The notes under the pieces: generated by a model
Told to the model about the DNA's origin: nothing
Seen by the model: only the letters and a program-made list of their open reading frames with translations
Database searches by the model: none
Assembly (NCBI GenBank): GCA_036245805.1
Contig: BTRK01000002.1
Coordinates: 6,072,689 to 6,136,688, forward strand
Direction of reading: 5' to 3'
Source of the DNA: Pristionchus mayeri
Taxonomy: Eukaryota; Nematoda; Chromadorea; Rhabditida; Neodiplogasteridae
Length of the DNA: 64,000 nucleotides
Position numbers and translations under genes: made by a program
Shown: positions 2,087 through 32,000 of the stretch, one piece after another
Layout of the letters: every line of letters begins with the position of its first letter
Numbering within the stretch: position 1 is the first letter of the stretch

Positions 2087-4361
2087 ATGCAACGCCATCA
2101 GTGCGTCGTGTGTCATCGAACCGGGATAAGCCGCGAGATGAATGTATTCGCGAGGAAACCGAATAAGCGCCAATCATGGGTGAATGGAGTTCGTTCCACT
2201 CCCGAGGGACGAAAAGTTCTCGCTCAAAAGATTCGAAATAGAAACCTCAAGAACAAGCCTTCGTTTCTGTGTTCAAGCCACTTCTCTCCTTCCGACTTTA
2301 ACTACATCACTAAGCATACAGTGCTCATGCCAGACGCTGTTCCCTACTTCGATGTAAGTGGTGATCACGCATTTTCTCCTTTTGCGCTCACGATTTGATC
2401 ATTAAGCATTTGGAATTTCAAGGACTCTACACTTGATGTGATGAATGAGATGGAAAAGAAACCGTTGGAAATCAAGGATGAACCTTTCGATGAAATTGAT
2501 CAGATCGGACAGCCAATTGCCGATGTGAGTTGTATTTATTTATTTTTTATTATTGAATTTCTAAAATTGTTTTTAGATGTTTTGTTAGATGCTTTTTCTT
2601 TTGATTCTTTATTTTATAAAACCCAAAAAAATTTAACCATCTTTCAGTTGTTCTGTCCATCGACTGGATTGTCTCGTCCGGTCGATCAGTCGACTTCCAT
2701 TAAATATCCGAAGAGTGGCGGAAAGTTTTTGTGCTCGGAGTGTGGCAAGAAATGCAAAACTACTGCTGGTCTCGACTACCACTTGCTCGCTCATACAGGT
2801 TCGTTTTTTCAGTAATGAAAAACAATCACTCGAAAAGGTAGTATTGCATTAATCCAGTGAACTTACAGTATTTATGGTCAAAATGTTAAAAAAAATCTGA
2901 GCCCGAAAGAGTTGAACATTAATTCATAACTTTTCTTCAATTAACACACATTCCTCAGAAAACAATAATACTTTCCTCGACTAGGTGAAAGGCCCTTCCG
3001 TTGTGATTACTGTGATAGCTCCTTTCGTTCAAATGGGAAGCGGCACAATCATATCCGCGTGTTTCATAAGATGGAGGTATAATTTCTCTTCTTTTCATTC
3101 ATTGAAAAATTGCATATTTTTGGATATTTTATGGCACGTATTTCGAATGGTTCCTTGCAGCCCCACTCGTGTCTCACCTGTGGATTGGGTTTCCTTAAGA
3201 AAGCTGGGCTGAAGGACCATCTACTCAAGAATGAGGGACATCAGGCGTTGGACGAAACCGTACGTACTCGTATTTGATGTGTACATGGCACTTATTGAAT
3301 TTCTGGCCCCGTCCCACTCTTCCTCCTCTATCATTTATCACCCCAAAAATTGTGCTCCCGTTCCAGTTTGTGCCGAAGAGAACATCGGCACCCGCAGAGA
3401 AATTGTTTGCCTGCTCAAAGTGCGACTTAAAACTCGTCTCTCAGGAGAATCTCAGAAGGCACATGAGCACAACTCATGCTGGACTTCGAGCATTCGACCT
3501 CGTACGTTTCGATTTCTATGTTTTTGTTGTACGTTTAGGCTGTATCGCGGTTGTTTGAGCAATGGTGTCATTCTCCTCATATTCCCCACTCTTTCTCATG
3601 TCTGATAAAGTAAGGGATAGTGAAAGAGGAAAATAATACACAATTACTCCGATGCTTCGTTATCTGCGATTGATCATTCAGGATAATGTGATGGACAAAG
3701 AAAAGTTCAAGAAAGCTGCTGCTTCAGTGCCGAAAGCAAAGAAGAAAGCTAAAAGAGCTAAGGCAAAGAAGTTTTCGTGCTCGAAGTGCGGCAAAAAATT
3801 CATCAGCAAAGGCGGATTCGAGTATCACATGAACAGACATGCGGGTCAGTTATGGACCATTAATAGTGAAATAATGCCTGCAAAGCGTTATTCTTTTTTC
3901 TATCTATTGTCGGTTGAAAATTTGTTATATTCAGGTTGCACCCAAATAGAACATCGTGCTGTGAGAGGAAAAGAGCCGGTAAATACTTAGAGTATGCTTT
4001 ATGTAATGTATGAAATGCGTTTGCAGAGATCGAAAGTCAATGGTCTGCCCAAAAGCAAAAATGTTGTAGTCTTTACTAATTCCAGCGGATTGAGCAAGAT
4101 GAGAGATGGAACAGAGGCAAAACACAAGGTTCGAGTATTTTTTTCATCTGTTTAAAAACGTTTGTGCCTGGTCGCTCGTTTCTACATCCGATATTCATGA
4201 GTAACACTTTTACAATCAACGTGAAGTAATTTTAAACATTTAAATACATACGCCATATTGAGGTCCCTGAACAGCAATCCTATCCACTCTTCGAAGATCC
4301 AGTGAAGGAAGAACAGATGGAAGAGGAAGACAAGGAAATGTTACATTACATTCTAGCATAA
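2087..4361 (+). CDS. THAP-domain protein with five C2H2 zinc fingers (copy 2, intact)
   Basis: Proposed exons, all with compatible phase: 2087-2353, 2423-2524, 2648-2798, 2985-3076, 3161-3259, 3367-3501, 3682-3844, 3935-3978, 4027-4128, 4263-4361 (TAA 4359-4361). Exon 1 is a complete THAP domain (CVVC, Trp in QSWVNGVR, CSSH, AVPY end motif). Exon 2 is acidic. Fingers follow in exons 3 (CSEC), 4 (CDYC with a TGERPF-like linker), 5 (CLTC, non-canonical His spacing), 6 (CSKC) and 7 (CSKC, preceded by a Lys/Ala-rich basic stretch). The C-terminus is acidic. It is likely a nuclear DNA-binding regulator; the target is unknown. A second last-exon candidate (4398-4470) resembles the final exon and suggests alternative 3' ends. 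This is the only one of the three neighbours without an obvious lesion. Confidence 0.85.
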
Positions 4362-4892
4362 TTTTGTGACACTTATTTAAAAAAAGGTCATTTTAAGGTT
4401 CCTGAGCAGAAATTTTTTCCATTTTTTGAAGAAGCAGTGAAGAAGGAAGAGACTGATGATGAAGAACCAGGTTTGCTTCTTTCAAGTAAATAAATGCTGA
4501 TAATTTCAGGCCCCTCTTGGGAACTTCATTAATCTCCCTTCGTCTGGATAGTTTCTCCTGATTTTCTTCTCTACTTTCCTCGCTGTTATCTGGAGTAAAT
4601 TGATTATCATTAGAACCCCCGATTCAATTGATTCCTACGATAATTATTCTATTCCGTTTCCTCTGTTTTACTCGCCTTTGTTGTGGTTCTAGTGATCTCC
4701 GAAGACATGTTGTTATCGTTTTCTCCTGTTTTCCTTTTTAATATTATGATAAATTGTTCAACCGTTATAATTGTATTCTTCTGAGTGAATCGTTGAATGC
4801 TCGACTGGTACTTATTCTTCTTAATAAGCACTTACTACTATAATGAAGCAAATTTCCAGTTCATCATCTCTCCGACCTTTTCGTAGGGTGGA
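4362..4892 (+). other. Alternative last exon and intergenic region
   Basis: Segment 4398-4470 is preceded by TTTTAAG and followed by a GTTTGC donor. It encodes an acidic KVPEQ..FF..A.KKEE stretch homologous to the last exon of copy 2, so it is probably a duplicated terminal exon. The rest of the interval is AT-rich, with no gene seen. Confidence 0.5.
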
Positions 4893-6842
4893 ATGAGGGA
4901 CTCCCTTCGTCAGTGTATCGTCTGTAATCGAATCGGGACCCACACTGAGATGCGCGTATTCACAAGGATTCAGGAGAAACGCAAAACATGGGTGAACGCT
5001 GTTCGCTCAACTTCCGAAGGCCGGAAAATACTCATGAAACTGCTTATTCGAAATACTAGCAAGACCAACAAAAACAAGCATTCTTTCATCCGTTCAAACC
5101 ATTTCTCTCCCTACGAATTTAAAAACGTTGCAAAGCATACCTGCATCAAGGCGGACGCTGTTCTCTTCTTCGATGTGAGTGACACATTTTTCCCCGCCTT
5201 AATTCTAAAATCTATTTTTTTTAAATTTCAAGGACTCTGAACTCAACTCACCTGGCATGGTTGAACTTTTCCAATCTACACTTGACATGTCGAAAGATAT
5301 GAAAGAGGAACCGATGGAAATAAAGGATGAACCTATCGATGAGTTGGATGAAATCGAACAGCCAATTGCCGATGTGAGTTTATCTTTTGTTTATTTTCAG
5401 ATTATCGTTGAATATTCCAGATATTCTGTCCATCTACTGGCAAGACTCGTCCTCCAGATATACGTAAGTTGAGGCATCCAAGCAAGGCTGGTTTGCCACC
5501 CCCGCGCCAATTCTGCGTTCAGTCTGTCCTGAGGTTATCAGCGACCTATGCGTGAGGCTACCGCCCGTGTTGTGTGCACGTGGTGGGGGATTTCTGACCT
5601 ATTTATGTCCACTCTAATGGGAGTTACTTCCAGTGATGTTTCCGGTATGCTACTGGTTACTTTGTTAAAATTTTCGTTCTCGCTCTTTTTTTGAATTTAA
5701 GTTTCTCCTCTGTTTAAAAGTCTAACATTGCTATTTTTAATGATGAAATTTTGAGATTGTTAAGGTTATGTTTTCCATACATCAGAATATAATTTCCCTT
5801 TAAATTTTTTTGTGATTTGAATGTTTTCCTCAGGTGACAGGCCATTCACGTGCCATTACTGCAATGTCAGCTTTCGCACTAATGGGAAGCGGGCGAGCCA
5901 CATTCGCCATATCCATAACATTCAGGTATCATTTTCTCGGCACTAGGTCTCGGCACTAGGCCGTCATGCCGCATTTCATATATCACAGGCGGTATGACGT
6001 CTTAGTTCATTGTTATCTTCCGACCTAGCACCGTTCACTCAGATCTGATTTCTACATTTTAAGTGATCTCACTATTTGCTATTCAAATAAATGTAAATAT
6101 TTAATTATATAATGTGCGAATGCCAATCGTAGCCCGATGTTCAATTTCTTTTGCAGCCCTATGCGTGTCGCACATGTGAGGCAAAGTTCCCTACGACAGG
6201 AGGATTGAGAGGGCATCTGCTCAAGAATAAGGGTCGTCAAGCATTGGATAGGACTGTGGGTTGCCTCGCATTTCTGTTACTTTCTCGGATAATGTTATCT
6301 TGATTTTGAGGGTGAAAATAGAGCACACTTTTGATTTCTGGCAACACTCCTTTTCAATTTCAACAATCCGTTTCCATCTTTTAAATGGGGTGAATGAAGA
6401 TGCTATGGGTAGGAAGAAACCAAACAATTGCCGAAGGACATTGGACAGGACCGTGGGTTGTCTCTAATTTCTATAACTTTATCGGATAATTTTCTTTAAA
6501 AAATGTGTGAAAATAGAGCACACATTTAATTTTTGGGTGCGCTCCTGTTCAACTTCAATTATCCCTTTCCATCTTTCAAATGGGTTAGTTGAAGATGGTA
6601 GTGGATCGGAAGAAACCCAAGAATTACCGAAAATGATGCTCGGCATCGGCAGCGACATGAGAACTCATGCGCGTATGTTTTTATTTTTCAAAATAAACTT
6701 TCATCCCAAAGGATGTTCTATCGTTATTTTTTCTTGATTTTTTACAGGTTCGAAGCTTGTATTCAAGTGTTCTTACTGTGAGAAGTCCTTCCGTGGTTTA
6801 GCTTCTCGGAAGAATCACATCCACAATGTGCACTTGATGCAG
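4893..6842 (+). CDS. THAP-C2H2 zinc-finger gene, copy 3 (THAP ligand lost)
   Basis: Proposed exons 4893-5174, 5233-5373, 5421-5463, 5834-5925 and 6157-6255 join in frame. A further finger exon lies at 6748-6842, with an acidic exon before it ending near 6672 whose acceptor I cannot place. Exon 1 matches copy 1 closely, but the CxxH pair reads RSNH, so the third THAP zinc ligand is Arg. The first finger present in copy 2 is missing from exon 3. Remaining fingers are CHYC...H, CRTC with its last His changed to Arg, and CSYC...H. A palindromic MITE lies in the intron after 5925. The gene may be expressed but is unlikely to fold a normal THAP domain. Its end beyond 6842 is not resolved. Confidence 0.65.
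5951..6032. mobile_element. Palindromic mini-MITE, copy a
   Basis: Ends GGCACTAGGCCG and CGACCTAGCACC are imperfect inverted repeats around an inner GTCATGCCGC...GCGGTATGAC stem. It lies in an intron of THAP copy 3. Related copies are at 6851-6941 and 38411-38482. Confidence 0.7.
6251..6655 (+). repeat. Two-copy tandem duplication (period about 197 bp)
   Basis: GGAC[T/C]GTGGGTTG recurs at 6251 and 6448, followed by parallel sequence (AAAATAGAGCACAC, TTCCATCTTT, then a GAAGATG...GGAAGAAACC segment). It looks like a duplicated intron-exon unit of THAP copy 3; only the second unit keeps an open acidic frame leading to the finger at 6748. Confidence 0.7.
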
Positions 6843-8431: not shown

Positions 8432-8447
8432 TTTATTAGGCTTTATT
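8432..8447 (-). terminator. Poly(A) signals of the neuropeptide-like gene
   Basis: On the minus strand the stop TGA (8449-8447) overlaps AATAAA (8447-8442), and a second AATAAA lies at 8437-8432. This fits the 3' end of the gene whose last exon is split by the RTE. Confidence 0.65.
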
Positions 8448-11400
8448 CAATGCCTGTACGGGTAACTCCCGGTAGGGGTGGGAGGAGGGTACGTGTGGGT
8501 GGGAACAGCGTGGGTGGTTTCGTACGCGTAGTGTCTGCCGGTTCATTATTTCATTATTTATCCAAGATCAAGGTCTGGGCCTGGTGGAAAATGCTATTCT
8601 TCCAAGCAACGGGATCTCTTCTACACACGCTATCCCAGTTCGGTCCCAGTTGTTGCACGAATTCGTCCCTCCATCTCGTCCGTGGTCTTCCAATTGGACG
8701 GACTCGATCATAGGGAGTCCATTCCATCACTCGTTTAGTCCATCTGTCGTCATCGAGCAATGCTATTCGTGCTGCCCAGTTCCACTTTCTCTGCATCGCT
8801 TGCACTCTAATATCCGGGATTGGCACTTTCTGCGACAGCCATTCATTGGTTCGACGATCCAGCCTCGTAACTCCGCACATTTTCCTCATCATACTTCGTT
8901 GTACTACTATGAGACGGTTGGTAATCTTTTTGGTCGGACTCCATATTTCACTTCCGTATAAAAGTGCTGGCATAACACACATTCTGTAGACTCTGGCCTT
9001 GAGGCCCATTTCTATCTTTCTGTTGATTAAGAATTCATGAAATCGATTAAATCCTCTCCAAGCACTTCCGATCCGGCGATTTATTTCAAGCATGAGATTT
9101 TGATCGAATGATACCCTTGTTCCAAGATATACAAAGGAATCGACGTAAGTCAAAGGTTGTCGGTCAGCAAATAATTTGGTTTGTTTTCGATTGCACATAA
9201 CGACAGTCTTCTTTTTGTTTAAAATCAGTCCCACCTTCTTGCTTGCGGAACAAAGATCGTCAATCATCGTTTGTACTTCTTTTGGGGAATGTGAGATTAA
9301 TACTACATCATCTGCATAACGAAGGTGACTTAGTCTTCTCCCATCGATATTGATTCCATACTCCTCCCAATTCATCGCACTCAGACAATCCTCGATTACC
9401 GCGTTAAACAGGTGAGGAGAGAGCGGGTCGCCTTGTCGGACACCTCTGGCTACGTTGATAGGGACTTTGTCTTGTCCCAAACGTACGAATACTTGGCCTT
9501 TATCGTATGCGTTCCTTATAACATTCACAATTTTAGAATGCACTCCTTGATTCGTTAACGCTTGCCACACTGCTCCAAATTCTATGCTATCAAAGGCTTT
9601 TGCGTAATCTATGAAGACCAGAATGCATGGAAAATCATACTCCACTGAGCGGCTTATGAGTTCACTGATTGCAAACGAGTGGTCTAGTGTAGAAAAGTTT
9701 CTCCTGAATCCAGCTTGCTCGCTTGGTTGGTGGGCGTTGAGAGTTCGTTCTATCCTTGTGTCGATCGTGGACGTAAACACTTTGTAGATGAGATTGAGTA
9801 AGGCGATTGGCCGGTAGTTTGTTATGTCCAGCATGTTTCCCTTCTTGAATATGAGTGAAATGAAAGAATTCGAGAGACTGTCCGGAATCTCTTCTTGGGC
9901 TATCCACTGGTTGAACAATTCGGCTAAAGGTTCCAAGAGCACATTTAAGCCACTCTTTAGCATCTCCGCATTAATTCGATCAGGTCCCGGTGATTTTCCG
10001 TTTTTCAGTTTCTTCACTGCATTTTTAACTTCACTTTTCAATATCGGGAGAAAAGAATCAGTTGAACAAGATTTAACTCTCGGCGGCCTTTGATTGCTCA
10101 CAAATAATCCATCGTAAAAGCCTTTCACGACACATTTCATATCATTCTTGGAGTAGGCAATGCTTCCATCGGGCTTTTCCAATTGATTCACTTGAGTGTT
10201 TCCTATCTGCGATGATCGTAGAGCTCTTCGTGTACTATGCCCGTATCGGACTGCTTCGCGCACTACCTCCAAGTGTCGCTTTCGCAGATCTTCTGCTATT
10301 GAGAATCGCAATAATTTACTTGTTTGGCAATATTGGATTCGATTCAGTACGTTGGCTCCGCTATCTCGCAAACGTCGCCTTCTTTCAAATAATTCCTCAG
10401 TATTCTTAGAGAACCTCGGGTCTCTTTGTCTCGGCATCATTGATTCGTTAGCCAATTCCCCCATCGCGATTGATAGTTTCTTATAAGAGGAAAACTCAGC
10501 TTTTGATTTCAAATGAATTTTGCTTTGAAACAATAGACGGTCAAATTGCATTGGAGGACGAGGCTGTTTGTAATATCTTCTCGACTTGACTTCAATTTTC
10601 ATTCGAGCCATAATTAATCGATGGTCTGTGGCAAAATTGAATCGGCCAACAACACTGACGTCTTGAATTATTGGCTTATCACGAGATAGAATATAGTCTA
10701 TTTGGTTTCTCGTTTGCATATTCGGAGACAACCATGTCCATTTTCTTGATTCTCGCTTGTCGAATTGGGTGTTGTGCACGAATAGTTTGGATTCTGTGCA
10801 GAAGTCGAATAAGATCTGGCCTCTTTCATTGCGATCTCCTGAACCATGTCTTCCTACAAATCTTTCATCGTCCGATAGTCGTTTCCCAATCTTGGCGTTG
10901 AAGTCGCCGGTGACTACTACATGTCCCCTGCCTCCCCCAGGTAGTCGAACACTACGGGAGGAAGAGTCCACGAGAGCACCTAACTCATTCAGAAGGCAAT
11001 TGTATTCATCGTCAGAGTGGCTTGTTGTTGGGGCGTATACAGATATGACACGTAGGCCGAAAGAAGGAACATCGATAAACGACAGATCGTTGACGGAGTG
11101 GAAGGTGACTTGAGGAGCGAGATGGCTGGCAACCAGGAAGCCGGTGCCATTGTGGGATCGGACTCCATATGCAACTAGCAGGTGACCAGAATTGGCTAGT
11201 GTGATGGAGGTTCGACCTGGCCTACGGACTTCCTGGAGCGCAATTACGTCGAAAGAGACTCCACTCACGCAATGTTCCAGTTCTGCCACTCGAGCATCCG
11301 ACTTGAGAGTTCGTGCGTTTAGAGATCCGATGCGTAAGGTCGAAGATTGCATCCGATGGACAGGCGAGACCCAGTGCGGTTGTCCAAGCTGACGACTGGG

Positions 11401-12626
11401 GACTCCCAAACGCGCACCAGAGAGGAGGCGATCAGAGTACGACCACCCCTCGCGAGCGCACGAATGGAGAATGGAGAATGGAGAATGGAGAATCGAGAAT
11501 GGAGAATGGAGAATGGAGAATGGAGAATGGAGAATGGAGAATTGTCTGCCGGTGGACTCGGGATAATCGTAACCTCGGGTAGGGGCGGGACGAGCAGGGT
11601 ACGTTTCGGCGGTTTCGTACGCGTAGGGTCTGTAGGTGGAAGTGTGATAATAGTCAGCCTCACGCTTGCCGGATCCGGGTCTGAAGAGAAAAGGTTAGTC
11701 TGGTAATCAACGCTACAGTATCCCGATCCCGAACTATGGCCCTGGTACCAACCTGAAGTTGGGTCTGCCGAGGGCGAGGCTGGGGTTCTCTTCAACCTCG
11801 CGCTTGCCGGGTCCGGGTCTGAAGGTAAAATATTATTCAAAAATCAAAAGCAACAGCATCCCTGTCCCGAACTACGACTATGGTACCAACCTGAAGTTGG
11901 GTCTGCCGAGGGCGAGGCTGGGGTCCTCTTCAACCTCTCGCTTGCCGGGTCCGGGTCTGAAGAGGAAACGTTAGTCTGGTAATCAACGCAACAGTATCCC
12001 GATCCCGAACTATGGCCCTTGTACACACCTGAAGTTGGGTCTGCCGAGGGCGAGGCTGGGGTCCTCTTCAACCCCGCGTTTGCCGGGTCCGGGTCTGAAG
12101 AGAAAACGTTAGTCGGGTAATCAACGATACAGTATCCCGGTCCCAAACAATAACCCCTGGTACCAACCTGAAGTTGGGTCTTCCCAGGGCGAGGCTGGGG
12201 TTGTCTTCAACCTCGCGCTTGCCGGGTCCGGGTCTGAAGAGAAAACGTTAGTCGGGTAATCAACGATACAGTATCCCGGTCCCAAACAATAACCCCTGGT
12301 ACCAACTTGAAGTTGGGTCTTCCGAGGGCGAGGCTGGGGTTCTCTTCAACTTCGCGCTTGTAATGATGAGGGTAAGCGGTAGTAGGGTAAGGGTACGTGT
12401 CATAGTACGTGTCGGTTGAGCTGGGATAATAATCAGCCTCTCGCTTGCCGGGTCCAGGTCTGAAGATAAAACGTTAGTCAGGTTACCAAAGATACAGTAT
12501 CCCGGTCCCGAACTATGACTCTGGTACCAACCTGAAGACGGGTCTTCCGAGGTCGAGGCTGGGATCCTCTACGGCACGGGCGCAGACGACGCCCAGAAGG
12601 ACGCCCACGACGATGAACAAACGCAT
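8447..12626 (-). CDS. RPamide-like neuropeptide precursor (NLP-2/22/23 type), last exon split by an RTE element
   Basis: Proposed minus-strand exons: 12626-12532, 12459-12307, 12233-12168, 12094-12029, 11956-11891, 11818-11753, then a last exon 11680-11543 continuing at 8531 to the TGA at 8447. Exon 1 encodes a signal peptide (MRLFIVVGVLLGVVCARA) and the first peptide. Every junction splits one Arg or Lys codon in phase 2, so each 66-bp exon adds 22 residues. Six copies of a core like DPSLALGRPNFRPGPG each end in KR, a prohormone-convertase site with a Gly amide donor. Tyr/Pro-rich spacers starting EADYY occur in exon 2 and the last exon. ALGRxxFRPG recalls nematode RPamide peptides, but here PG is added before KR. 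Unspliced frames hit stops inside the introns, so splicing is required. Donors are the unusual GTTGGT, which lowers certainty. The ATG follows TTGTTTCAGG, an acceptor-like signal. Confidence 0.8.
8554..11409 (-). CDS. RTE endonuclease-reverse transcriptase
   Basis: An uninterrupted frame of about 951 residues. The N-terminal AP-endonuclease-like domain (about 25-270) has SLNARTL (Asn31), LQE (Glu60), GDFNAKIG (Asp169, Asn171) and a TDHR motif near its end. The reverse transcriptase domain (about 470-760) has KAFDSIE, GVRQGDPLSP and the catalytic YADD (Tyr698 onward). A C-terminal GRPRTRWRD motif is also typical. The first in-frame ATG is at residue 20 (11352), directly before the endonuclease domain; the frame is open far upstream, through the heptamer repeat and into the neuropeptide exon. 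All visible catalytic residues are present, so the protein could be active. Confidence 0.93.
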   Translation of the reverse strand: MGVPSRQLGQPHWVSPVHRMQSSTLRIGSLNARTLKSDARVAELEHCVSGVSFDVIALQEVRRPGRTSITLANSGHLLVAYGVRSHNGTGFLVASHLAPQVTFHSVNDLSFIDVPSFGLRVISVYAPTTSHSDDEYNCLLNELGALVDSSSRSVRLPGGGRGHVVVTGDFNAKIGKRLSDDERFVGRHGSGDRNERGQILFDFCTESKLFVHNTQFDKRESRKWTWLSPNMQTRNQIDYILSRDKPIIQDVSVVGRFNFATDHRLIMARMKIEVKSRRYYKQPRPPMQFDRLLFQSKIHLKSKAEFSSYKKLSIAMGELANESMMPRQRDPRFSKNTEELFERRRRLRDSGANVLNRIQYCQTSKLLRFSIAEDLRKRHLEVVREAVRYGHSTRRALRSSQIGNTQVNQLEKPDGSIAYSKNDMKCVVKGFYDGLFVSNQRPPRVKSCSTDSFLPILKSEVKNAVKKLKNGKSPGPDRINAEMLKSGLNVLLEPLAELFNQWIAQEEIPDSLSNSFISLIFKKGNMLDITNYRPIALLNLIYKVFTSTIDTRIERTLNAHQPSEQAGFRRNFSTLDHSFAISELISRSVEYDFPCILVFIDYAKAFDSIEFGAVWQALTNQGVHSKIVNVIRNAYDKGQVFVRLGQDKVPINVARGVRQGDPLSPHLFNAVIEDCLSAMNWEEYGINIDGRRLSHLRYADDVVLISHSPKEVQTMIDDLCSASKKVGLILNKKKTVVMCNRKQTKLFADRQPLTYVDSFVYLGTRVSFDQNLMLEINRRIGSAWRGFNRFHEFLINRKIEMGLKARVYRMCVMPALLYGSEIWSPTKKITNRLIVVQRSMMRKMCGVTRLDRRTNEWLSQKVPIPDIRVQAMQRKWNWAARIALLDDDRWTKRVMEWTPYDRVRPIGRPRTRWRDEFVQQLGPNWDSVCRRDPVAWKNSIFHQAQTLILDK
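11461..11542 (-). repeat. 5' heptamer array of the RTE (ATTCTCC x 11)
   Basis: Eleven 7-bp units on the minus strand; the seventh unit ends G instead of C. It lies inside the target duplication and is therefore part of the element. Because 21 bp equals three units, it is open in frame and encodes a seven-residue FSILHSP repeat. Confidence 0.9.
11680..12306 (-). repeat. 138-bp exon-intron tandem array of the neuropeptide gene
   Basis: The motif CCGGGTCTGAAG recurs at 11675, 11813, 11951, 12089 and 12228 (spacing 138-139 bp). Each unit is one 66-bp exon plus an intron of about 72 bp; intron sequences are almost identical, pointing to recent duplication or gene conversion. The exons are symmetrical phase 2-2 and can multiply without shifting the frame. 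Confidence 0.92.
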
Positions 12627-12795
12627 CCTGAAACAATTGGGTTACGGTATCTGGGAAGGTATACGATATCCGTCCGAGAACTGGGTTCAGGTCAGAAGAG
12701 GGATGAGGGTGGGGGGGGGTGCTGGTTGGGGTATGGTACCTGCTGACAGCGGTCGAGCCTGGATGTGAATAGTGAGGAGAGGGGGCTGAGGAAGG

Positions 12796-12812
12796 GGTTT
12801 TTATAGGCGGAG
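12796..12812 (-). promoter_or_regulatory. TATA-like box upstream of the neuropeptide gene
   Basis: The minus strand reads CCTATAAAAACCCC about 175 bp upstream of the ATG. A CAG|GTACCA donor-like site between it and the TTTCAG before the ATG would allow a 5' UTR intron. Inferred from sequence only. Confidence 0.4.
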
Positions 12813-13084: not shown

Positions 13085-13235
13085 GGTAATATGCCGAGGA
13101 GGAAATTTCAAGGTTGCAGAATAGAAAGTTTTTTTTCGACAGGTAATGTGCTTCCTATAAAAAAAGCATCACTTTTTATAGGAAACATATTACCTTCCGA
13201 AAAAAAGCGTTCTATTCTGTAACCTTGTGATTGCC
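13085..13235. mobile_element. Palindromic MITE, copy a (TTCCTATAAAAAG stem)
   Basis: A hairpin centred on CCTATAAAAA...GCATCAC...TTTTTATAGG with outer arms AGGTTGCAGAATAG / CTATTCTGTAACCT. A second copy is at 16460-16580. Outside this hairpin I see no gene between 12813 and 14355. Confidence 0.75.
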
Positions 13236-13589
13236 TCGGTATTAATCCTCCCTTCATTTCACACACTCTCTGGATAGATCTGGCAGATGACTAATGGTGC
13301 CACCCTGTCTCTATTACATGCACTCAAGTGACTGCACGAAACACGTGATGAGCAAGTTAGAATCTGTTGAGTCATGACGAGCCAGTCGAAGAATTGTAAT
13401 TTCTAAGCACGTTGCGTTTTCAAATTTTAGAAATTACTTAAGAAAATCAGAATGAGGCATCAATGGAGCAAGGTAAGCCAGTCGCATCAAAGTGGAACTT
13501 TCGAGTTCTAGTAACAGTCTAAACCACGCGATGAAAAATGAATCTCGAAAGACCCCCAAAACAAAGTGAGAGACAAGGAAAACAAAGGC

Positions 13590-16200
13590 ACGCACATTAG
13601 GAGGCGCACTAACACGCCGCCTTCGCCAACTTCCAACTACACGTGCGGGGCAAAAGAGAGGAGCTACTCTCTTTGTCCAAGTATTGGTTGAATAGTATTG
13701 TAAGTTTCGCAGAAATTATGAAATGATTGCAGAATTTGAACCTTATAAATTTACCACGCCTCCTGATATGCCCATTCCCTTCCATATTTTATGAAATGAT
13801 TGCAGAATTTGAACCTTATAAATTTACCACGCCTCCTGATATGCCCATTCCCTTCCATATTTAAGCATTCCTTTACAAATGCCACTTTTTTCTCCCATTC
13901 AGTTCAATTCTACATTAATAGGGAGAAAGGAGGAGCCATTATGGTGTTTGTTGTATGAAATTATGATATCATTTCAGTCTGGTCTGTGAACCCGATGACT
14001 TTATAAGATGAGGGATGGGCAGGGGTGCGTGCTTTTCCTCGTTCACGCATCGTCCTCGTTGAAATGTGTGCGGACCTGGAAGTGTGAGCTTAAGAAATCT
14101 CGTCAACTCGTCCCCGTTACTACAAAGTAGGGTTGACTAAGCAGAAAGCGACCGTACGTAGAACAGATGCAGTTTAGAGTATGTACTACAGAGAGTACCA
14201 AAACTGCACATAATTTCCGCAAATGTATATTTCCCAGAATGTCCAATGATAGTTAGTTTTAACAGTAAGGCACTCTCTACGTTTCACACGCTCAAACGTC
14301 GGTCAGACCGAGAGAGGGAGTACTCAAAATAAGAAATGTGCGAGTGTCCCCGGTGCTATCCCACCTGCTCCAGTCCGAGTTCCTTCTTGCTCATCAGCCG
14401 CAGCTCGTACTTCTTCACCTTCCCCGTGGCAGTCAACGGGAAGTCAGCCTACGATAGGTAAGGATTACGGTGGCAGGACTACGGTAGGTCAACCAACCTC
14501 CTTCTTGATCAGCACGTACTGGGGAATCTTGTAGTGGGCGATCTGCAAGGAATGATCGATTGAAGCAAATACCGCACCCAGTTTAAGCGATCGATAATTT
14601 GGCTCTAAGTCGGATGAGGAGAACAAACTCCGGCACTTCTGCAGTATGTCGTACCAAAATGAGAGGGGTGGGAATGCGGCGGAGGTATGATAGGATAGGG
14701 TAAGTGATGGGCGAAAATTATTTACAAAAATTGCTAAGTAGCCTAACGAATGGTACTAATCAGTCATACCGTCATACCCTATCCTGCCATACCTCCGCCG
14801 CATTTCCACCCCTCTGGTACGACATACTGCATAAGTGCCCAAACTCCTTCTACTATTCGATCAACATTGGTACAAGCCAATCTGTCAGACAAAATCCAGT
14901 TCTCTCCAACAGTATAGCTAAATCAAACTAGCTACCGTAAACCCGGATACAGTATACTAAACCTACAAGGGAAGATCGATAACTACCGAACCCCATTTAC
15001 CGTATACCTTGCCCTTGCAGGCCTCCTTGATCGTCTCGGGAGTGATGTTGGTGACGCCCTCGCGCAATCTGACCCAACCAACCTCCTTCTTGATCAGCAC
15101 GTACTGGGAATCTTGTAGTGGGCGATCTGCAAGGGGAGATCGATTGAAGGAACTGCCGTATCCTGTTTAAGCGATCGATAATTTTGTCCTAAATCGGATG
15201 AGAAGAACACACTCCTTCTACTATTCGCTCAACATGGATACAAGTGAATCTGACCGACAAACTCCAGTTATCATCCGAATAGCATAGCTAAATCAAAGTA
15301 GGAAGCGTAACCACGGATACAGTATACCAGATCTACAGGTGAAGATCGATAACTATCGTAACCCCGGCTATCGCATACCTTGCCCTTGCAGGCCTCCCTG
15401 ATCGTCTTGGGAGTGACGTTGGTGACGCCCTCGCGCAGTCTGATCCACGCGCACACTGCCTCGCCCATGCGCTCATCCGGCACACCGATCACCTGTGTGG
15501 CATAATGGGTGCGGTAGTCAGCAGTGTGACATCAATGATCCAAGATTACAGTAGTCAGAGAAGTCAGATTCGTTGACTAATACATTTTTGACTAGAACAA
15601 AGAGGGAATTACATTTGAAGTTGACAAGGAATCTGACCCATCGAACTACCGTACTCTCACTATCGTGTACCTGAGCATCCGCGACGCCTCTGAGCTTGAA
15701 GAGGACTGCTCGATCTCGGTGGGGTAGATGTTCTCGCCGCCGCGGATGATCTACAGAGCATTTCTCACGTTCACAGAAGATATAGTAAGATAAGGGCCAG
15801 AATCGAAAACGGAACCAGAACCGGATATTAGAAAGGCCGAATTTTAGTGGAAGCAGGACCGGATATTAGTACCATGTCCTTGGTGCGGCCAACGATGTTG
15901 ACGGCGCCGTCGTCCGATATGTAGGCGGTGTCTCTGAAAGAAGGTGACTTTGATAATCAATTTTTGAACTGGAACAAGTGTGATCGTAATTTTCTCATTG
16001 CCCAGATGCATTCCTTGACAATGTGTACGTGGTACACCAATTCAGAACCAACAAGTCGCGGCAATGAGTCTTTTCCGAAGCACAAATCAACCAATCCCTC
16101 CTCGTATGTCAAGAGTGACGATTCACGATAAACTAATCTATGCATAGTTACAGCTTTAGAAAGAATTGCCCCCTCTCACTCACCCTGTGTGGTACCATCG
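13590..16200. repeat. Segmental duplication, copy A (pairs with 33395-36430)
   Basis: High similarity from CACGCACATTAGGAGGCGC through the 3' exons of the acyl-CoA synthetase gene to the CCCTGTGTGGTACCATCGATC segment. Copy B at 33.4-36.4 kb carries extra insertions. Confidence 0.85.
13718..13863. repeat. 73-bp tandem duplication
   Basis: ATGAAATGATTGCAGAATTTG starts at 13718 and again at 13791, with near-identical sequence through CCCATTCCCTTCCATATTT. The homologous place at 33.71 kb has a single copy, so this happened after the segmental duplication or was lost there. Confidence 0.9.
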
Positions 16201-22266: not shown

Positions 22267-23522
22267 TTAGGTTGGTCGATAATGAATGCAAGATTTTTTT
22301 GTTCATAACATTTTTATTTATAATTCAACAACACACAACAATCAATCAACAATATAATCACCATTGTACTGCACAACATTGGTCCACCTATTGGGCAGGT
22401 CATTGATGCCGTTCTCCCAGAAGAACGATGGCTGGGACTCGAAGAAGTTGGCGACATCGGTTTTCAGGTGGTCAAAGTCCGCGAAGGTTTTGTTGCGTAG
22501 GAACAACTTGAGGGCCCGGAACAAGTGGTAGTCAGAGGGTGCCAAGTCAGGAGAATATGGCGGGTGGGGTACGGTTTCCCAGTTCAGTTCGGCAAGCTTG
22601 GACTGAGTTAACTTTGCTGTATGAGGTCGAGCGTTGTCATGAAGCAGGTATACTGTAGTTCGTCTCCGACGCTTCTGTTTCATCGCAGCGGCCAGATTGT
22701 CCAGTTGAGTACTGTAGAGGATAGAACTGACTGTTTTCCCTTGAGTGAGCAGGTCATAGTACAGCATCCCTTGCGCATCCCAGAAGCAGCACAGAAGAAT
22801 CTTCTTTGGATGGGGGTCGGCTTTGGGTTGCGTTGGCGGCTCTTCTCCTCGGGGGATCCAGACAGCGTGACGGGTACTGTTATCGTAGAGGATCCAACTT
22901 TCATCTCCAGTCACGAGGTCTTCTAGAAGCTCCTTCCTGTGGGGGCGAAGGAGGAGAGATTGGCAGATGCTTGTACGGGTCATCCTCTGGCCATCGGTGA
23001 GTTGGTGGGGCACCCATCTGGATAGAACTTTGTGGTAGCCAAGCGTTTTGAGGTGGTTGACAACAGTACTATGGACGCACCCAAGTGTGGTCGCCAGTTC
23101 ACGGGTGCTTGATTCCGGCTTCTCCCTTATGGCACGGAGTAATTCAGAATCATCGGTGGTGATTGGGGGACCAGTGGAGTGTCCGCTTTCGAGATTCGTC
23201 TCTCCTTCCTCAAAGCGATTGAACCATCGGTGTACTGTGCTGTAGGTAGTCACATCCTTCTTGAATGCTCCGTTGATGTTAGCAGTGGTCTTGCTCGCGT
23301 TGGCTCCGCGCAGCCATTCGTAATAGTGCAAGACGTGAAGTTGGTCTTCGGTAATGTCGGTCATAGTTTATTCTACCTTGAAGCGGCCGCTTTTATATAT
23401 CTTTAGGGGAGTACCTCCGAGAACACTCTAGAACATTCTAGAGTTGGGAAATTGCCAACCTGCAAAAAAGCGGGAAAATTAAATTTTTTAAAAAATCTTG
23501 TATTCATTATCGACCAACCTAA
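22267..23522 (-). mobile_element. Complete mariner transposon
   Basis: TA target duplication and TIRs of about 30 bp (TTAGGTTGGTCGATAATGAA at the left, reverse complement ending GACCAACCTAA at the right), enclosing an intact transposase. Confidence 0.94.
22342..23364 (-). CDS. Mariner (DD34D) transposase
   Basis: 340 residues with no lesion, the usual mariner length. An N-terminal helix-turn-helix pair (about 5-110) is followed by the family signature WVPHQL (117-122). Catalytic Asp154 (GDESW), Asp243 (LHDNARPH) and Asp278 (APSD) give the DD34D spacing, with YSPDLAPSD conserved. It cuts and pastes the element between TA sites. With intact TIRs it may be an active or very recent insertion. 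Confidence 0.95.
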   Translation of the reverse strand: MTDITEDQLHVLHYYEWLRGANASKTTANINGAFKKDVTTYSTVHRWFNRFEEGETNLESGHSTGPPITTDDSELLRAIREKPESSTRELATTLGCVHSTVVNHLKTLGYHKVLSRWVPHQLTDGQRMTRTSICQSLLLRPHRKELLEDLVTGDESWILYDNSTRHAVWIPRGEEPPTQPKADPHPKKILLCCFWDAQGMLYYDLLTQGKTVSSILYSTQLDNLAAAMKQKRRRRTTVYLLHDNARPHTAKLTQSKLAELNWETVPHPPYSPDLAPSDYHLFRALKLFLRNKTFADFDHLKTDVANFFESQPSFFWENGINDLPNRWTNVVQYNGDYIVD

Positions 23523-26002: not shown

Positions 26003-29000
26003 CTACTTGCTTGCGTGCGTTTGGGAAAATATAGTTCTAACCAGCTCAGATTTCGAGGGTGGTTCTTTTGTGTAGAGGTGCACAACGCGGAAGTGCGTCA
26101 ATTTCCCTCGATTCCTCTCTGCCGCCCTCGATTGATGTAGTGCCTTGAGCCGCTCGATAGACTGCAATAATCCATAGAAACTGCTGTCAAAAATGGCCAA
26201 TGAAGTTCAGCACGACTTATCACTTTTTTAATATGTGCACTTACTTGTTAGTTTTTAAAATATCTGCAAATAAATTACAACAACAAAGCCATAATAAATA
26301 TCGAGCAATTCCATCAGCATACAGTGCTCAAAATCGTCATGACGGAGGCGGCGGACAAGATGATAAGGCTAGCGTAGGCGCACAGGATGAGGGGGAATAT
26401 ATCATTGACTGCACTTGATGATCGATCAGAGAGGGCTGAAATGAAATAATTCTGAATATACACTTATAGATAACCGTTATGAGAAACTTTTCTGGTATGC
26501 GTCTCCAAGTGGCGGGCAAGTTTGATAACCACTTGGGAGAACTCTCTCTCTCTCTCTCCTTATTACATGCTCCCTCGTATCGCTGACCAACCAACTCCCA
26601 GGAAAATTCAATGACTGAACTTGAAGTCGGTCAGAGATAGAAGAGAAAGTAGTGACCTACAGGGTGTCCAAAAAGTATTGTTACACGGATATAACCATGT
26701 ATCTTTCTTTAAAAGCAACATAGACAACTCAAACGGGGCACAGTATTTATCAGTGACCATATGAACATAACAATGCACGATCACTCGATCTGGCCTCCAT
26801 TGGCCGCGATGACCTCTCTGAGACGACGAGGGACCGAGTCGATGACGGCCCGCAGGTAAGGGACGTCGATCTTCTCCCATGCCTTGAGAAGGGCTGCCTT
26901 GAGGGAATCGCGGTTCTTGTGGCGAGTAGAGCAGGCCTCCTTCTCCAACACTGACTAAATGCTGAAGTCCAGAGGGTTGAGATCGGGGGAGTTCGAGGGC
27001 CATTCCTCACTCGAGATGAAGTCGGGCAGATGGGCGCGACACCATGCCTGCGTCACTTTTGCCGAGTGTTTACATCAACAATCGATAGCCGGATCGAACG
27101 TACACTGTCACAAAATCAGCCACCAGAACAAGCAGGCTTTCGCAAGAACTATACCACTACAGATCACATATTCACACTCAACGAATTGATCTGTCGCTCC
27201 ACTGAATACGACTTCCCGCTCTATCTCGTCTTTATAGACTTCGCAAAAGCGTTCGATTCTGTGGAGTTTAGTGGCGTGTGGAGTGCCCTTTGTCAACAAG
27301 GTGTTCATTCAAAAATAGTCAATACAGTGAGAGATGTATATGATCGTGCTGAAGTTTTCGTGAAAGTAGGAAGAAGCAAAGTTCCAATCGAAGTGGGCAG
27401 AGGTGTCCGTCAAGGAGACCCCCTATCCGCACACTTATTCAATTGTGTATTGGAGAGTGTCTTCCGTGAACTGGACTGGTCGAATTATGGAATCAGCATA
27501 GATGGAAAGAAAATAAACCACTTACGGTATGCATACGATATTGTTTTAATTTCCCACAACCCAAAAGAAATATCGCGAATGATGGATGAACTAGTGAAGG
27601 AAAGTGCAAAAGTCGGATTAACGATCAATAAGAAGAAAACTGTCGCCATGTCAAATAGAAATCAAACGCCATTGTTCATAGATCAAGATCAATTGATTTC
27701 CGTGAACAGTTTCATTTACCTTGGCTTCCGCTTATCATTCGACAATATTCTTCTGCTAGAAATAAACAGGAGGATCGGAAGCGGTTGGAAAGCGTTTAAC
27801 CGTTTTCACGATTTTCTTACAAACAAATGCGTTGCAATGGGACTAAAAGCAAGAGTCTATCGAATGTGTATTGAACCTGCGCTCTTGTACGGCTGTGAAG
27901 TATGGAGCACTACGAAGAAAATAAGATCAAGGTTGATAGTAGCTCAACGCTCGATGATGAGAAAAATGGCAAACGTAACGAGGATGGACAGAAAAACCAA
28001 TGACTGGCTCTCAAACAAAGTGCCCCTTCAAGATGTTCGAGTAAGAGCAATGCAGAGGAAATGGAAATGGGCGAGAAGGATAGCTTTGTTTAATGATGAA
28101 AGATGGACGCAGCGATTAGCTCAATGGACACCTTGGGACAGAGAAAGACTGATCGGAAGGCCCAAAATGAGGTGGCGAGACGAACTTGTGCGCCACTTGG
28201 GAGTTAACTGGGCCGACAAAAGCAGAAGATACCCCGATAAGTGGAACGATTGCATGATTCAACAGGCCCGTGACCTGATGCTTGAATAAATTTGATTTGA
28301 TTTGATGGATAGTCGTCCTAAATAAATTGTTAATATAGCAATTCCTGTTTGTTTAACCCGAAATCGCTTCGAAAAGAGTTATGTTTAAAATGTGAATATC
28401 AAATGTATTTAAAATATTTATTGCCCACTGATTTTGCTGAAAATTGTCCTCCATCCTTCGTCAAGAAATTGAATTCGAATTCCGTTTTCAGAACGTATTT
28501 CTGATTGTGCATTCGTTCGAGTGGATCAGTTATTGACTGCAATATTTCGCGTTTTTGTGTTTGTACATAATATATAGCTTACAATGTGCGTAATGGAAAA
28601 GATCACATTATTGGATCCAGATTGTGTAATTGGATCCATATCTATGTAATCATCCATTTTCTTTCCATTAGTACCTTCGAACGCAACAGTGCATCCATCC
28701 TCTTGAAGTGTACAGGGTGTCCAAAAAGTATTGTTACACGGATATAACCATGTATCTTTCTTTAAAAGCAACATAGACAACTCAAACGGGGCACAGTATT
28801 TATCAGTGACCATATGAACATAACAATGCACGATCACTCGATCTGGCCTCCATTGGCCGCGATGACCTCTCTGAGACGACGAGGGACCGAGTCGATGACG
28901 GCCCGCAGGTAAGGGACGTCGATCTTCTCCCATGCCTTGAGAAGGGCTGCCTTGAGGGAATCGCGGTTCTTGTGGCGAGTAGAGCAGGCCTCCTTCTCCA

Positions 29001-32000
29001 ACACTGACTAAATGCTGAAGTCCAGAGGGTTGAGATCGGGGGAGTTCGAGGGCCATTCCTCACTCGAGATGAAGTCGGGCAGATGGGCGCGACACCATGC
29101 CTGCGTCACTTTTGCCGAGTGAGCAGGCGCTGAATCCTGTTGAAAGGTCCAGCGAGCCCCTTTGAAGTGGGAGCGGGACCAGGGGAGAAGGGCCTTCTGG
29201 AGAATTGCCCTGGTGTAGTACTCCTTGTTGATCTTGACCCCGGGATCCACGAACACGAGAGGAGTCTTGCCCGTCGAGCACACACCAGCCCAAACCATCA
29301 GTGCCTGGGGGTGGGCAATGCGAGAGATGGTTCTACCTCTGGCGTCAGCTTGCTGAAGAGACTTGGCGATGATCCTGGTGTTCTGACTGTTGTAGACCTC
29401 CTCGACTGAGAACAGCTTCTCGTCAGAGTAAACGGTAGTCAAGTGCTCCCCACGATCGGCCCGCTGAAGGAGCAGCTTGCATCTCTCCAGGCGCTTCTGC
29501 TTGTGGACATCAGTGAGGCCATGGCCCTTTCTCATCTTGTAGGGGTAGGACTTGAGAAGAGAATGAACGATGGCACACACGGATCCTTTGGAGATCTTGA
29601 GATCCTTAGCCATCTTCCTGATGGATCGTTTGGCATTGCGATTCACTCTCTTCTCCACGATTCTCCTGTTCTTCTGAGTGAGAGCGGTCTTGGGTCTTCC
29701 TGATCTTGGACGGTCCTTCGCAGTGCCCAACTGCTTGAAACGGGAGATGGTGCGATAGACTGTCATTCGGGAAATACGAAGCTTCCTCCTGATGGAATCT
29801 GGGGGGTCGCCGAGGGTCCAAAGGTTGATAATAGTTTGACGATAGCGATTTGGACGAACCATGACTATGGGAAACTAATTAGTAGGTTCTCTCAACGCAC
29901 CGAAGGGTGGGCTCAAACGTGTTATTACAGGTTTTGACAACTCGACCTACATGTTAAAAAAATTCGCGTTTCAAAAGTGTAACAATACTTTTTGGACACC
30001 CTGTATTACGTAGTGACCAAACTTGGTCGCCACAAGCGAGTTTACACTTTGTTCTCATCAAAATGATTTAGAATTTTTTTCAGAAAACATGATTTATGAC
30101 CTTGAGGCTCGGAGAACAAGAGCACGATAGAATCGAAAATATGTAAGTCGAGTGCAGTGTCCACAAAAAATCTGGAAAGATTGAGATATGTTTATTCTCA
30201 TTCTGAATCAATTTTTCAAAGTAGATACGAAATTGTACTGCTTTCCAAACAATAGCCATAAAATATTCACCTGAACATCGATTTTTTCTGAATAATCGAG
30301 AAGATTGCAGTGAGAATGAATAGAGCTATGCCCGAAGTCAAAAGGATGCTCTAAAGTGATTGAAGTTTGATTTTAAAATTTTTAAAACTAAACTCAGACA
30401 AGAATTTACCAAATTAAAGAGATTTAAGAGAGACTATCTGAGTGAGTGAACATATGCTTGGCAAAGTTGGAAAAATGGAATTCACCCTAAATTTGTATAT
30501 GAAGCTGTTCGCGTAAGAATCGAACAAATCGGAGCAGGTTTGGCACAGACCAAAACTATCGATTTTTCGAAACTCTGGTTACTGGGGTTTTCGAGGGTGC
30601 TGAAGACGATGGCCATATTCATTTTGCACATGGAGCCTTCGTTGATGCCAGACGGCGTCACGTCGAAATCGCATTATCGCATGTATCTCTGCATCTGGTA
30701 ATCCCAAAATTAAGTGAGCATGTTTTTAGGAGTAAAATTCAACGGCGATCACGACTATGTAGTCTAAATTTTAAAATGTACGAAAATAAATTTTAAAACT
30801 TTTCTAAAAATTCGGAGAGTCAAAAGCATAAAATGAATTTACCACCGATTTGACCGGATTGATGTGACGATTCCTAATATATTTTTCATTTTCGTGTTAG
30901 ACATGCTCAATTTTTGCAGTGTAATTAAATGTATCTGAAAATGGAGAGATTATCAGAATGAGTGCCAGTGGGCAGGACGAGAGACAATGGGAAGAGGAGA
31001 GAGTGTAGACAGTCAGAGGAGCGAGAGGCAGAGGAGGGCAGAGGTCAGTCGATACGGGCCGAGACACACGAGGTAGATCAAAGGGAGGAGGCAGTTCATC
31101 TCTCAATTTTCAGATACATTTAATTAAACTGCAAAAATTGAGCATGTCCAACATGAAAATGAAAAATATATTAGGAATCGTCACATCAATCCGGTCAAAT
31201 CGGTGGTAAATTCATTTTATGCTTTTGACTCTCCGAATTTTTAGAAAAGTTTTAAAATTTATTTTCGTAAATTTTAAAATTTAGACTACACAGTCGTGAT
31301 CACCGTTGAATTTTACTCCTAAAAACATGTTCACTTAATTTTGGGATTACCAGATGCAGAGATACATGCGATAATGCGATTTCGACGTGACGCCGTCTGG
31401 CATCAACGAAGGCTCCATGTGCAAAATGAATATGGCCATCGTCTTCAGCACCCTCGAAAACCCCCCCCCAGTAACCAGAGTTTCGAAAAATCGATAGTTT
31501 TGGCCTGTGCCAAAAATTGTTCGACTCTTACGCATACGGCTTCATATGAGTAGTACTCAGTGAGCATAGATCGTGCATGGTATATTTAGTGCTCTAGGTG
31601 CCTTACTGAGAAGTACGCGGCATGTTAGTCGAAAAACATCAATTTTCGAAATTTCTCATTTCGCAATCGATCTGAGCGTCATACTTCAAAAAATTCGGAA
31701 TATTCATATGATTATATTTATCTAGTATCATCCTTCTCGGCTCTCAATTCTTTCAGAAAATTCGAAAAATCGATTTTTTTTGTAATTTTTTTTATTATTA
31801 CTCTATCACCGGGGTGGTTTGGGAGCGTTTATATTTTTGATTCTTGTAGTAGTAATTGCCCACTATTTACTGGGAGAAACAAAGGGAAATTAAAAATACA
31901 GTTTTCGCAAAATTCGTGGTGAAGCACTGAAAAGTCGAATAAAGTCAGTTTGTAATAAGGACCTGCCTACCGTAACCCAAAACAAAATTGGAGGGTAGGT

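Follow-up and report, generated by a model that had tools for sequence, protein, structure and literature searches.

Neuropeptide precursors are known for varying in the number of peptide copies that they carry. In nematodes, the RPamides have Ala at position 3, Gly5-Arg6 and a C-terminal FRPG, and GnRH/AKH-like receptors respond to the RPamides of C. elegans, according to the passages on these peptides in PMC7303124. The nlp-22 genes are given as having a single peptide copy each in the corresponding part of PMC4654748. Another RPamide gene, nlp-87, encodes S(I/L)ALGR(F/L)(S/N)LRPG in the account of PMC8764417; the S(I/L)ALGR core start is shared with the gene described here, but nlp-87 ends in LRPG, without the PG extension discussed below. 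In Drosophila, the number of fmrf peptide copies differs among species, but the whole precursor lies in one exon, and for this reason the change is not one of exon duplication (passages on fmrf in PMC2575521). Tandem peptide-encoding exons with almost no divergence are described for the caerulein and magainin genes of Xenopus laevis, and the caerulein gene is said there to derive from a neurohormone gene (passages on these genes in PMC3731216). In most schistosome micro-exon genes, numerous small symmetric exons come after a signal peptide, and these exons can be skipped in frame (passages on these genes in PMC4015677).

The gene considered here lies on contig C2 of the Pristionchus mayeri genome (290.8 Mb in 73 contigs were searched), in a 64,000-nucleotide piece of that contig that we call the window. 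It belongs to a family of arrays on C2 that resemble nematode RPamide genes (nlp-2/22/23) in the core x-x-Ala-x-Gly-Arg-x-x-Phe-Arg-Pro-Gly, in KR sites and in a signal-peptide-like start; one member, L024, carries RPGKR units, and an intron in the Arg codon of the FR/PG motif (slashes mark splice junctions) is shared with genes on contigs C1 and C4. Unlike nematode RPamides, the C2 arrays add PG (or SG) before KR, predicting an RPGP- or RPGS-amide. Most of their KR sites are separated from the core by an acidic segment, and their tandem exons encode roughly one peptide each, with as many as 20 cores. They also differ from fmrf, each copy being an exon-intron unit. The Xenopus genes are vertebrate, unrelated and serve skin-gland secretion, whereas the window gene is known from sequence alone. 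In schistosomes, skipping yields protein variants, whereas the window exons are nearly uniform, and the passages of PMC4015677 on micro-exon genes contain nothing on KR-flanked amidated peptides; we take the two as unrelated. Among the matches listed for the open-access literature, supplementary files aside, no nematode neuropeptide gene of such a build was found, and those listed for a search with the peptide letters look unrelated by title and abstract. We consider it likely that the window holds a multi-copy secreted neuropeptide precursor gene of nematode RPamide descent, of the nlp-2/nlp-22 kind, which would work by the mechanism given in the last section.

The window gene and the insertion in its last exon

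A preliminary description of this DNA had joined seven minus-strand exons in phase 2, and the start, the exons and the six introns are indeed as it described them. Read from the sequence, the exons run from the ATG at 12626 to 11543, where the insertion in the last exon follows, and the first six measure 95, 153, 66, 66, 66 and 66 bp. When joined, the seven encode a hydrophobic start, then six units that each close with KR, then a tail rich in Tyr and Pro, and the tandem period of the array is 138-139 bp. The introns are 72-73 bp each, all GT..AG and all phase 2, and all six lie inside the Arg codon of FR/PG (Lys in one unit), so the claim that every intron splits the same Arg/Lys codon stands. 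Two further claims apply to most but not all of the gene: GTTGGT, which is not a textbook donor, is used by five of the six introns, the other having GTGTGT, and the exon size of 66 bp is that of four exons, the remaining three of the seven being different. The features of the gene, all on the minus strand, are as follows.

12799 to 12805: TATA box (TATAAAA), some 65 bp upstream of the point where the predicted non-coding first exon ends
12628 to 12739: predicted 5'UTR intron (CAG/GTACC ... TTTCAG/GATG), from sequence reading and a three-locus alignment
12532 to 12626: exon 1, with ATG, signal-peptide-like MRLFIVVGVLLGVVCA and first core SLDLGRPVF, from sequence reading and hydropathy
12307 to 12459: exon 2, with PGPGKR, a Tyr-rich spacer, KR, core SLALGRPNF and Lys at the junction
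12168 to 12233: exon 3, 66-bp repeat unit PGPGKR EVEDNPSLALGRPNF
12029 to 12094: exon 4, 66-bp repeat unit PGPGKR GVEEDPSLALGRPNF
11891 to 11956: exon 5, 66-bp repeat unit PGPGKR EVEEDPSLALGRPNF
11753 to 11818: exon 6, 66-bp repeat unit PGPGKR EVEENPSLALGRPNF
11543 to 11680: exon 7 ahead of the insertion, PGSGKR and a Tyr/Pro-rich tail, the final 11 bases being a target-duplication copy
8543 to 11542: RTE-type non-LTR retrotransposon of 3,000 bp inside the last exon, from Pfam, copies and target duplication
8442 to 8542: displaced end of the last exon, with the other target-duplication copy (8542-8532) and a tail ending in SYPYRH

The TATA box is conserved in all three aligned loci (window, L021 and L024), as is the 5'UTR intron donor CAG/GTACC, and the acceptor of that intron reads TTTCAG in the window, TTCCAG in L021 and TTTGCAG in L024. 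Residues 3-15 of the precursor are hydrophobic, with a mean hydropathy of 3.18. Exact matches to SL1, the sequence that we take to be the nematode spliced leader, number 465 in the genome (269 forward, 196 reverse; 0 for the reversed control). Upstream of the gene there is a perfect 73-bp tandem duplication (13716-13861) and, at 13099-13237, a 65-nt inverted repeat with arms that are 85% complementary and 9 nt apart, possibly a MITE. An Rfam search of the window gave nothing at the gathering score.

The six units are, in order, SLDLGRPVFRPGPGKR, SLALGRPNFKPGPGKR, three copies of SLALGRPNFRPGPGKR and SLALGRPNFRPGSGKR. They had been called near-identical, which holds overall but passes over three differences: the first unit is a variant, the second has Lys, and the last has Ser where Pro would stand. 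Four of the six read SLALGRPNFR, in line with the RPamide core (Ala3, Gly5-Arg6 and, close to the C-terminus, FRP); of the other two, SLALGRPNFK has Lys in place of Arg and SLDLGRPVFR has Asp in place of Ala3. The preliminary description had noticed the extra PG before the cleavage site, and its Pro-amide prediction does follow from the sequence: the extension predicts RPGP-amide ends, and an RPGS-amide for the last unit. It had also half said that these are not strict RPamides. RPG stands directly before KR in none of the six units, which read RPGPGKR, KPGPGKR or RPGSGKR, and for this reason we class the predicted peptides as RPamide-derived rather than as RPamides in the strict sense. Mature N-termini are uncertain, because most KR sites are directly followed by an acidic stretch (EVEEN and the like) and not, as in known RPamide precursors, by the core. 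Computed [M+H]+ values are 2078.0777 for EVEENPSLALGRPNFRPGP-NH2, 1591.8815 for NPSLALGRPNFRPGP-NH2, 1380.7858 for SLALGRPNFRPGP-NH2 and 1988.9937 for EVEENPNFAIGRTNFRP-NH2. A Pfam search with two precursors gave only matches below threshold, the best being TRH with 21 bits against a cut-off of 27.8 (for L024) and three others being weaker.

The span of the gene had been drawn to 8447. The displaced end of the last exon does lie there, with a stop at 8449-8447 and AATAAA at 8447-8442, and it is 74% identical to the end of the L021 tail exon, but the 3,000-bp element at 11542-8543 inside this span had gone unmentioned. The element has one 951-aa ORF with Pfam domains PF03372 (endonuclease/exonuclease/phosphatase) and PF00078 (reverse transcriptase), a short AATGAA-type 3' repeat as its tail and an 11-bp target duplication, ACCGGCAGACA, with copies at 11553-11543 and 8542-8532; in the uninterrupted last exons of L021 and L022 this sequence occurs once. 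A single endonuclease and reverse transcriptase ORF, a 3' repeat tail and a target duplication are features that we take to mark the RTE clade, hence the name. An 801-bp piece of the element has 227 candidate places in the genome; of the 40 that were scored, 37 (36 besides the window's own copy) show 98-100% identity across the part that matched, and they are spread over C1 to C6; because the scored copies are this similar, the family is judged to be young. The frame of exon 7 is open into the element ORF and ends at the stop of that ORF, 8556-8554, and a fusion of precursor and reverse transcriptase would be possible on paper. All six peptide units lie upstream of the insertion and are untouched, the last KR-containing part sharing exon 7 with it. 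Further ORFs of a mobile-element kind are present in the window.

22342 to 23364, minus strand: 340-aa ORF with matches to mariner-type transposase (PF01359, HTH_48)
27030 to 28289, plus strand: reverse transcriptase ORF
29008 to 29862, minus strand: HTH/IS630-type ORF
44448 to 46202, minus strand: DUF1759 protein ORF, presumably a BEL/Pao-like element

Sister loci on contig C2

The repeat unit is present at five C2 loci: the window, L021, L022, L023 and L024. A DNA search of the genome with one exon gave 33 matches, all on C2, and a degenerate pattern (Ala-x-Gly-Arg-x-Asn-Phe plus the split Arg) gave 38, against 1 in the control: 20 in L021, six each in L023 and L024, four in the window gene, one in L022 and one on C4. 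Searches with the signal-peptide exon (4 matches), the L024 exon (33) and the L021 tail exon (6) indicated no further array loci, and a short-peptide search of the genome led nowhere. The window gene has 6 units, L024 and L023 have 7 each and L021 has 20 cores, and the earlier suggestion that peptide dose can change by exon duplication fits these numbers.

The L024 gene (C2:13.30 Mb) looks intact from its sequence. Its precursor has five NFAIGRTNFRPGKR units, one SLALGRPNFRPGPGKR and a short PNFRPGKR. The five NFAIGRTNFRPGKR units read NFAIGRTNFR and have RPG directly before KR, and for these units L024 is classed as an RPamide gene by the strict reading applied above. About 0.8 kb upstream of its start there is a coding stretch with Gly-X-Y repeats, named collagen-like by eye. 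L021 (C2:28.68 Mb) has its 20 cores in 21 exons; exon 20, which has a TGA, is preceded by 18 complete units, and the acceptor of exon 3 reads AC where AG is expected. Over 18 units the order of unit types is AABBAABAABAABBAABB, and mean unit identity is 0.975-0.980 at lags 3, 4 and 7 and 0.956-0.969 at lags 1, 2, 5, 6, 8 and 9, a pattern that hints, if only modestly, at exchange between blocks. In L023 (C2:6.03 Mb) there are seven units, with and without the PG extension, and the locus is truncated at the 5' end: there is no signal-peptide start, only bases 41-95 of the signal-peptide exon match, and the open frame upstream has no ATG. L022, which lies some 12 kb from L021 in inverted orientation, is a 3' fragment with a single core.

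L021, 5149 to 7769: exon array repeating every 138 bp, with unit types in a loosely AAB-like order
L022, about 3730 to 4690, reverse complement: 3' end of the L021 gene plus the flank downstream of it, copied almost without change and inverted
L024, from 2401 or earlier to about 3046, reverse complement: collagen-like stretch

These lesions bear on the idea of decaying duplicates, in which the intact L024 would be functional and the window gene, L021, L022 and L023 would be pseudogenes or on the way there. The retrotransposon in the window gene, the stop and the lost acceptor in L021 and the truncation of L023 and L022 all speak for this, but the six units of the window gene and the splice sites upstream of the insertion are intact, the consensus units of the loci differ synonymously only, and the L021 stop comes after 18 complete units, in an array where symmetric exons could be skipped in frame. 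We consider such decay unlikely. This and the other alternatives discussed here are not mutually exclusive, and the probabilities that we attach to them need not add up to one.

Divergence of exons and introns

The differences between consensus exons are few: of 66 positions, 1 differs between window and L021, 4 between window and L023 and 3 between L021 and L023, all of them synonymous third positions. For the consensus introns, compared over the 72-base introns (23 in all, which excludes the 73-base introns of the window), the corresponding numbers are 10, 19 and 21 of 72. Between loci, pN/pS is 0.17 (window-L021), 0.19 (window-L023) and 0.11 (L021-L023); within loci, it is 0.27 for the window, 0.08 for L021 and 0.36 for L023, the unit with a 130-base intron being omitted from these values. 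The selection comparisons took the 66-bp exons encoding LALG (4 from the window, 19 from L021 and 4 from L023), leaving out L024, L022, exon 1 and the 153-bp exon 2 of the window gene and the 60-bp exon 6 of L023. Across these 27 units, codon positions 1, 2 and 3 have 5, 1 and 11 variable sites, with a chi-square p of 0.011 that serves as a guide only, the units being related. Varying sites make up 17 of 66 in the exon and 23 of 41 in the interior of the intron.

In the window gene, L021, L023 and L024 together, 43 introns were modelled, and all are phase 2, in the Arg/Lys codon before Pro. The donor is GTTGGT in 35 and the acceptor TTCAG in 39 (one reads TTCAC); a branch-point-like motif is missing from 11 by the pattern used. 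Splice sites were chosen by patterns drawn from the window gene, two fitting donors (in L021 and L024) being omitted, and the uniform codon position of the introns is for this reason partly built in. The preserved KR-containing frame through all modelled introns is not built in by the choice of sites. If retained, 38 of the 43 introns would bring in a stop and 3 more a frameshift, and only 2 could be kept with the frame open throughout; because of the other 41, a continuous reading across the introns was rejected.

A non-coding 138-bp minisatellite that happens to resemble a gene would share the tandem period of 138-139 bp, but it would have to cope with consensus differences confined to third positions and introns that change faster than exons, with a start, promoter, tail and poly(A) signal all in place, and with a unit that recurs in the differently built L024 gene. 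We find it scarcely credible, and a simple minisatellite was rejected on the spliced-frame structure across loci and the pattern of exon and intron divergence. The array is more than a chance arrangement: its unit recurs at four other C2 loci and varies in the manner expected of spliced coding sequence.

RPamide relatives and the proposed mechanism

Ordinary RPamide genes are found on two other contigs. The uninterrupted pattern GRxxFRPGKR has three matches in the genome (control 0), all in one nlp-2-like gene on C1, in which a fourth unit, the first in order, is split by an intron. A gene on C4 encodes a single SNFAIGRTNFRPG followed by RKR.

L068, about 4693 to 5030: C4 one-peptide RPamide gene, with a 40-bp intron in the Arg codon of FR/PG

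For the C4 gene, nlp-22-like is a loose label, because nlp-22 is reported only in Caenorhabditis in the relevant passages of PMC8764417 and the name is used more widely in those of PMC4654748. The intron of the first C1 unit and that of the C4 unit agree with the introns of the C2 arrays in both Arg codon and phase, and the chance of both coinciding is about 4e-4, a rough value from a uniform model with introns counted by eye. The C1 protein, spliced by eye, is 75% identical over 114 aa to Pristionchus fissidentatus PFISCL1PPCAC_23346 (P0006), a canonical RPamide precursor that corresponds to the C1 gene rather than to the C2 arrays: of its four units, the first ends in FRPSKR and the other three in FRPGKR, unlike those of the arrays. 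The L024 precursor retrieves nematode RPamide precursors from the protein database, which includes Pristionchus; these are orthodox RPamide precursors only, with no C2-type relative. With the window precursor, no relative was found among the candidates scored at E <= 1e-3, and with the L021 precursor no C2-type relative among those scored at E <= 1, where there was one weak match (E 0.13). Three database proteins (P0001-P0003) have four SLALGRxNFRPGKR units each and are likely RPamide precursors of other nematodes.

RPamide kinship had been proposed from the peptide core alone, and the comparison strengthens it: because L024 has both unit types, NFAIGRTNFRPGKR and SLALGRPNFRPGPGKR, and the C1 and C4 genes share the phase-2 intron in the Arg codon, the window family is judged to descend from RPamide genes. 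The C2 exon unit looks as if it arose by tandem copying of the split unit of an ancestral RPamide gene, and the PG extension looks like a six-base duplication (CCCGGA to CCCGGACCCGGC) directly after the splice acceptor. Gain of PG is the presumed direction, because C1, C4 and most L024 units are without the extension.

Another possible outcome of this descent is a gene that once made a neurohormone and has been taken over for bulk secretion, for instance in gland or epidermis, its output raised by additional exon copies. In favour are the near-identical cores, of which there are up to 20, the Tyr/Pro-rich tails and a promoter whose TATA box is conserved among the three aligned loci. Ordinary RPamide genes remain on C1 and C4 and would leave the C2 family free for a new role, and frog skin caerulein, with tandem peptide exons and an origin from cholecystokinin, is a precedent (passages on this gene in PMC3731216). 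The cores have, however, stayed RPamide-like under purifying selection, and receptor signalling fits equally well; we rate bulk secretion as quite improbable.

The mechanism that goes with the likely reading, that of a secreted multi-copy neuropeptide precursor, would start from a phase-2 intron in the Arg codon of FR/PG, which is present in RPamide genes of this genome. In the C2 family, the stretch from this intron to the next copy has become a symmetric exon (66 bp in the arrays): its first part carries the amidation and KR cleavage signal that belongs to one peptide, and its last part is the core of the following peptide. By unequal exchange, such 138-139 bp exon-intron units could then add or remove peptide copies without a frame shift, and because the 66-bp exons are symmetric, the gain, loss or skipping of an exon would change only the number of peptides. 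The transcript would be spliced at the predicted junctions, and the precursor would enter the secretory pathway to be cut after KR, trimmed and amidated. The products would mainly be EVEENPSLALGRPNFRPGP-amide-like peptides or N-terminally shortened forms, acting on GnRH/AKH-like receptors such as relatives of GNRR-3/GNRR-6, and exon number would set the peptide yield per mRNA.

Annotation based on ORFs would miss such a gene, as is suggested by the window gene, where no exon before the last is longer than 153 bp. The five loci may be seen as different stages in one genome, which has also kept ordinary RPamide genes that share the intron, and because these coexist, both peptide dose and the step from RP-amide to RPGP-amide would be directly testable. 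A more far-reaching idea, which we put forward tentatively and regard as doubtful, is that the six-base duplication and the symmetric exons gave rise to a dose-tunable RPGP-amide hormone with its own role, through a new receptor or bulk secretion, and with a copy number that unequal exchange could shift between about 6 and 20. If this is true, the caerulein story would have been repeated in worms, starting from a GnRH/AKH-related RPamide gene.
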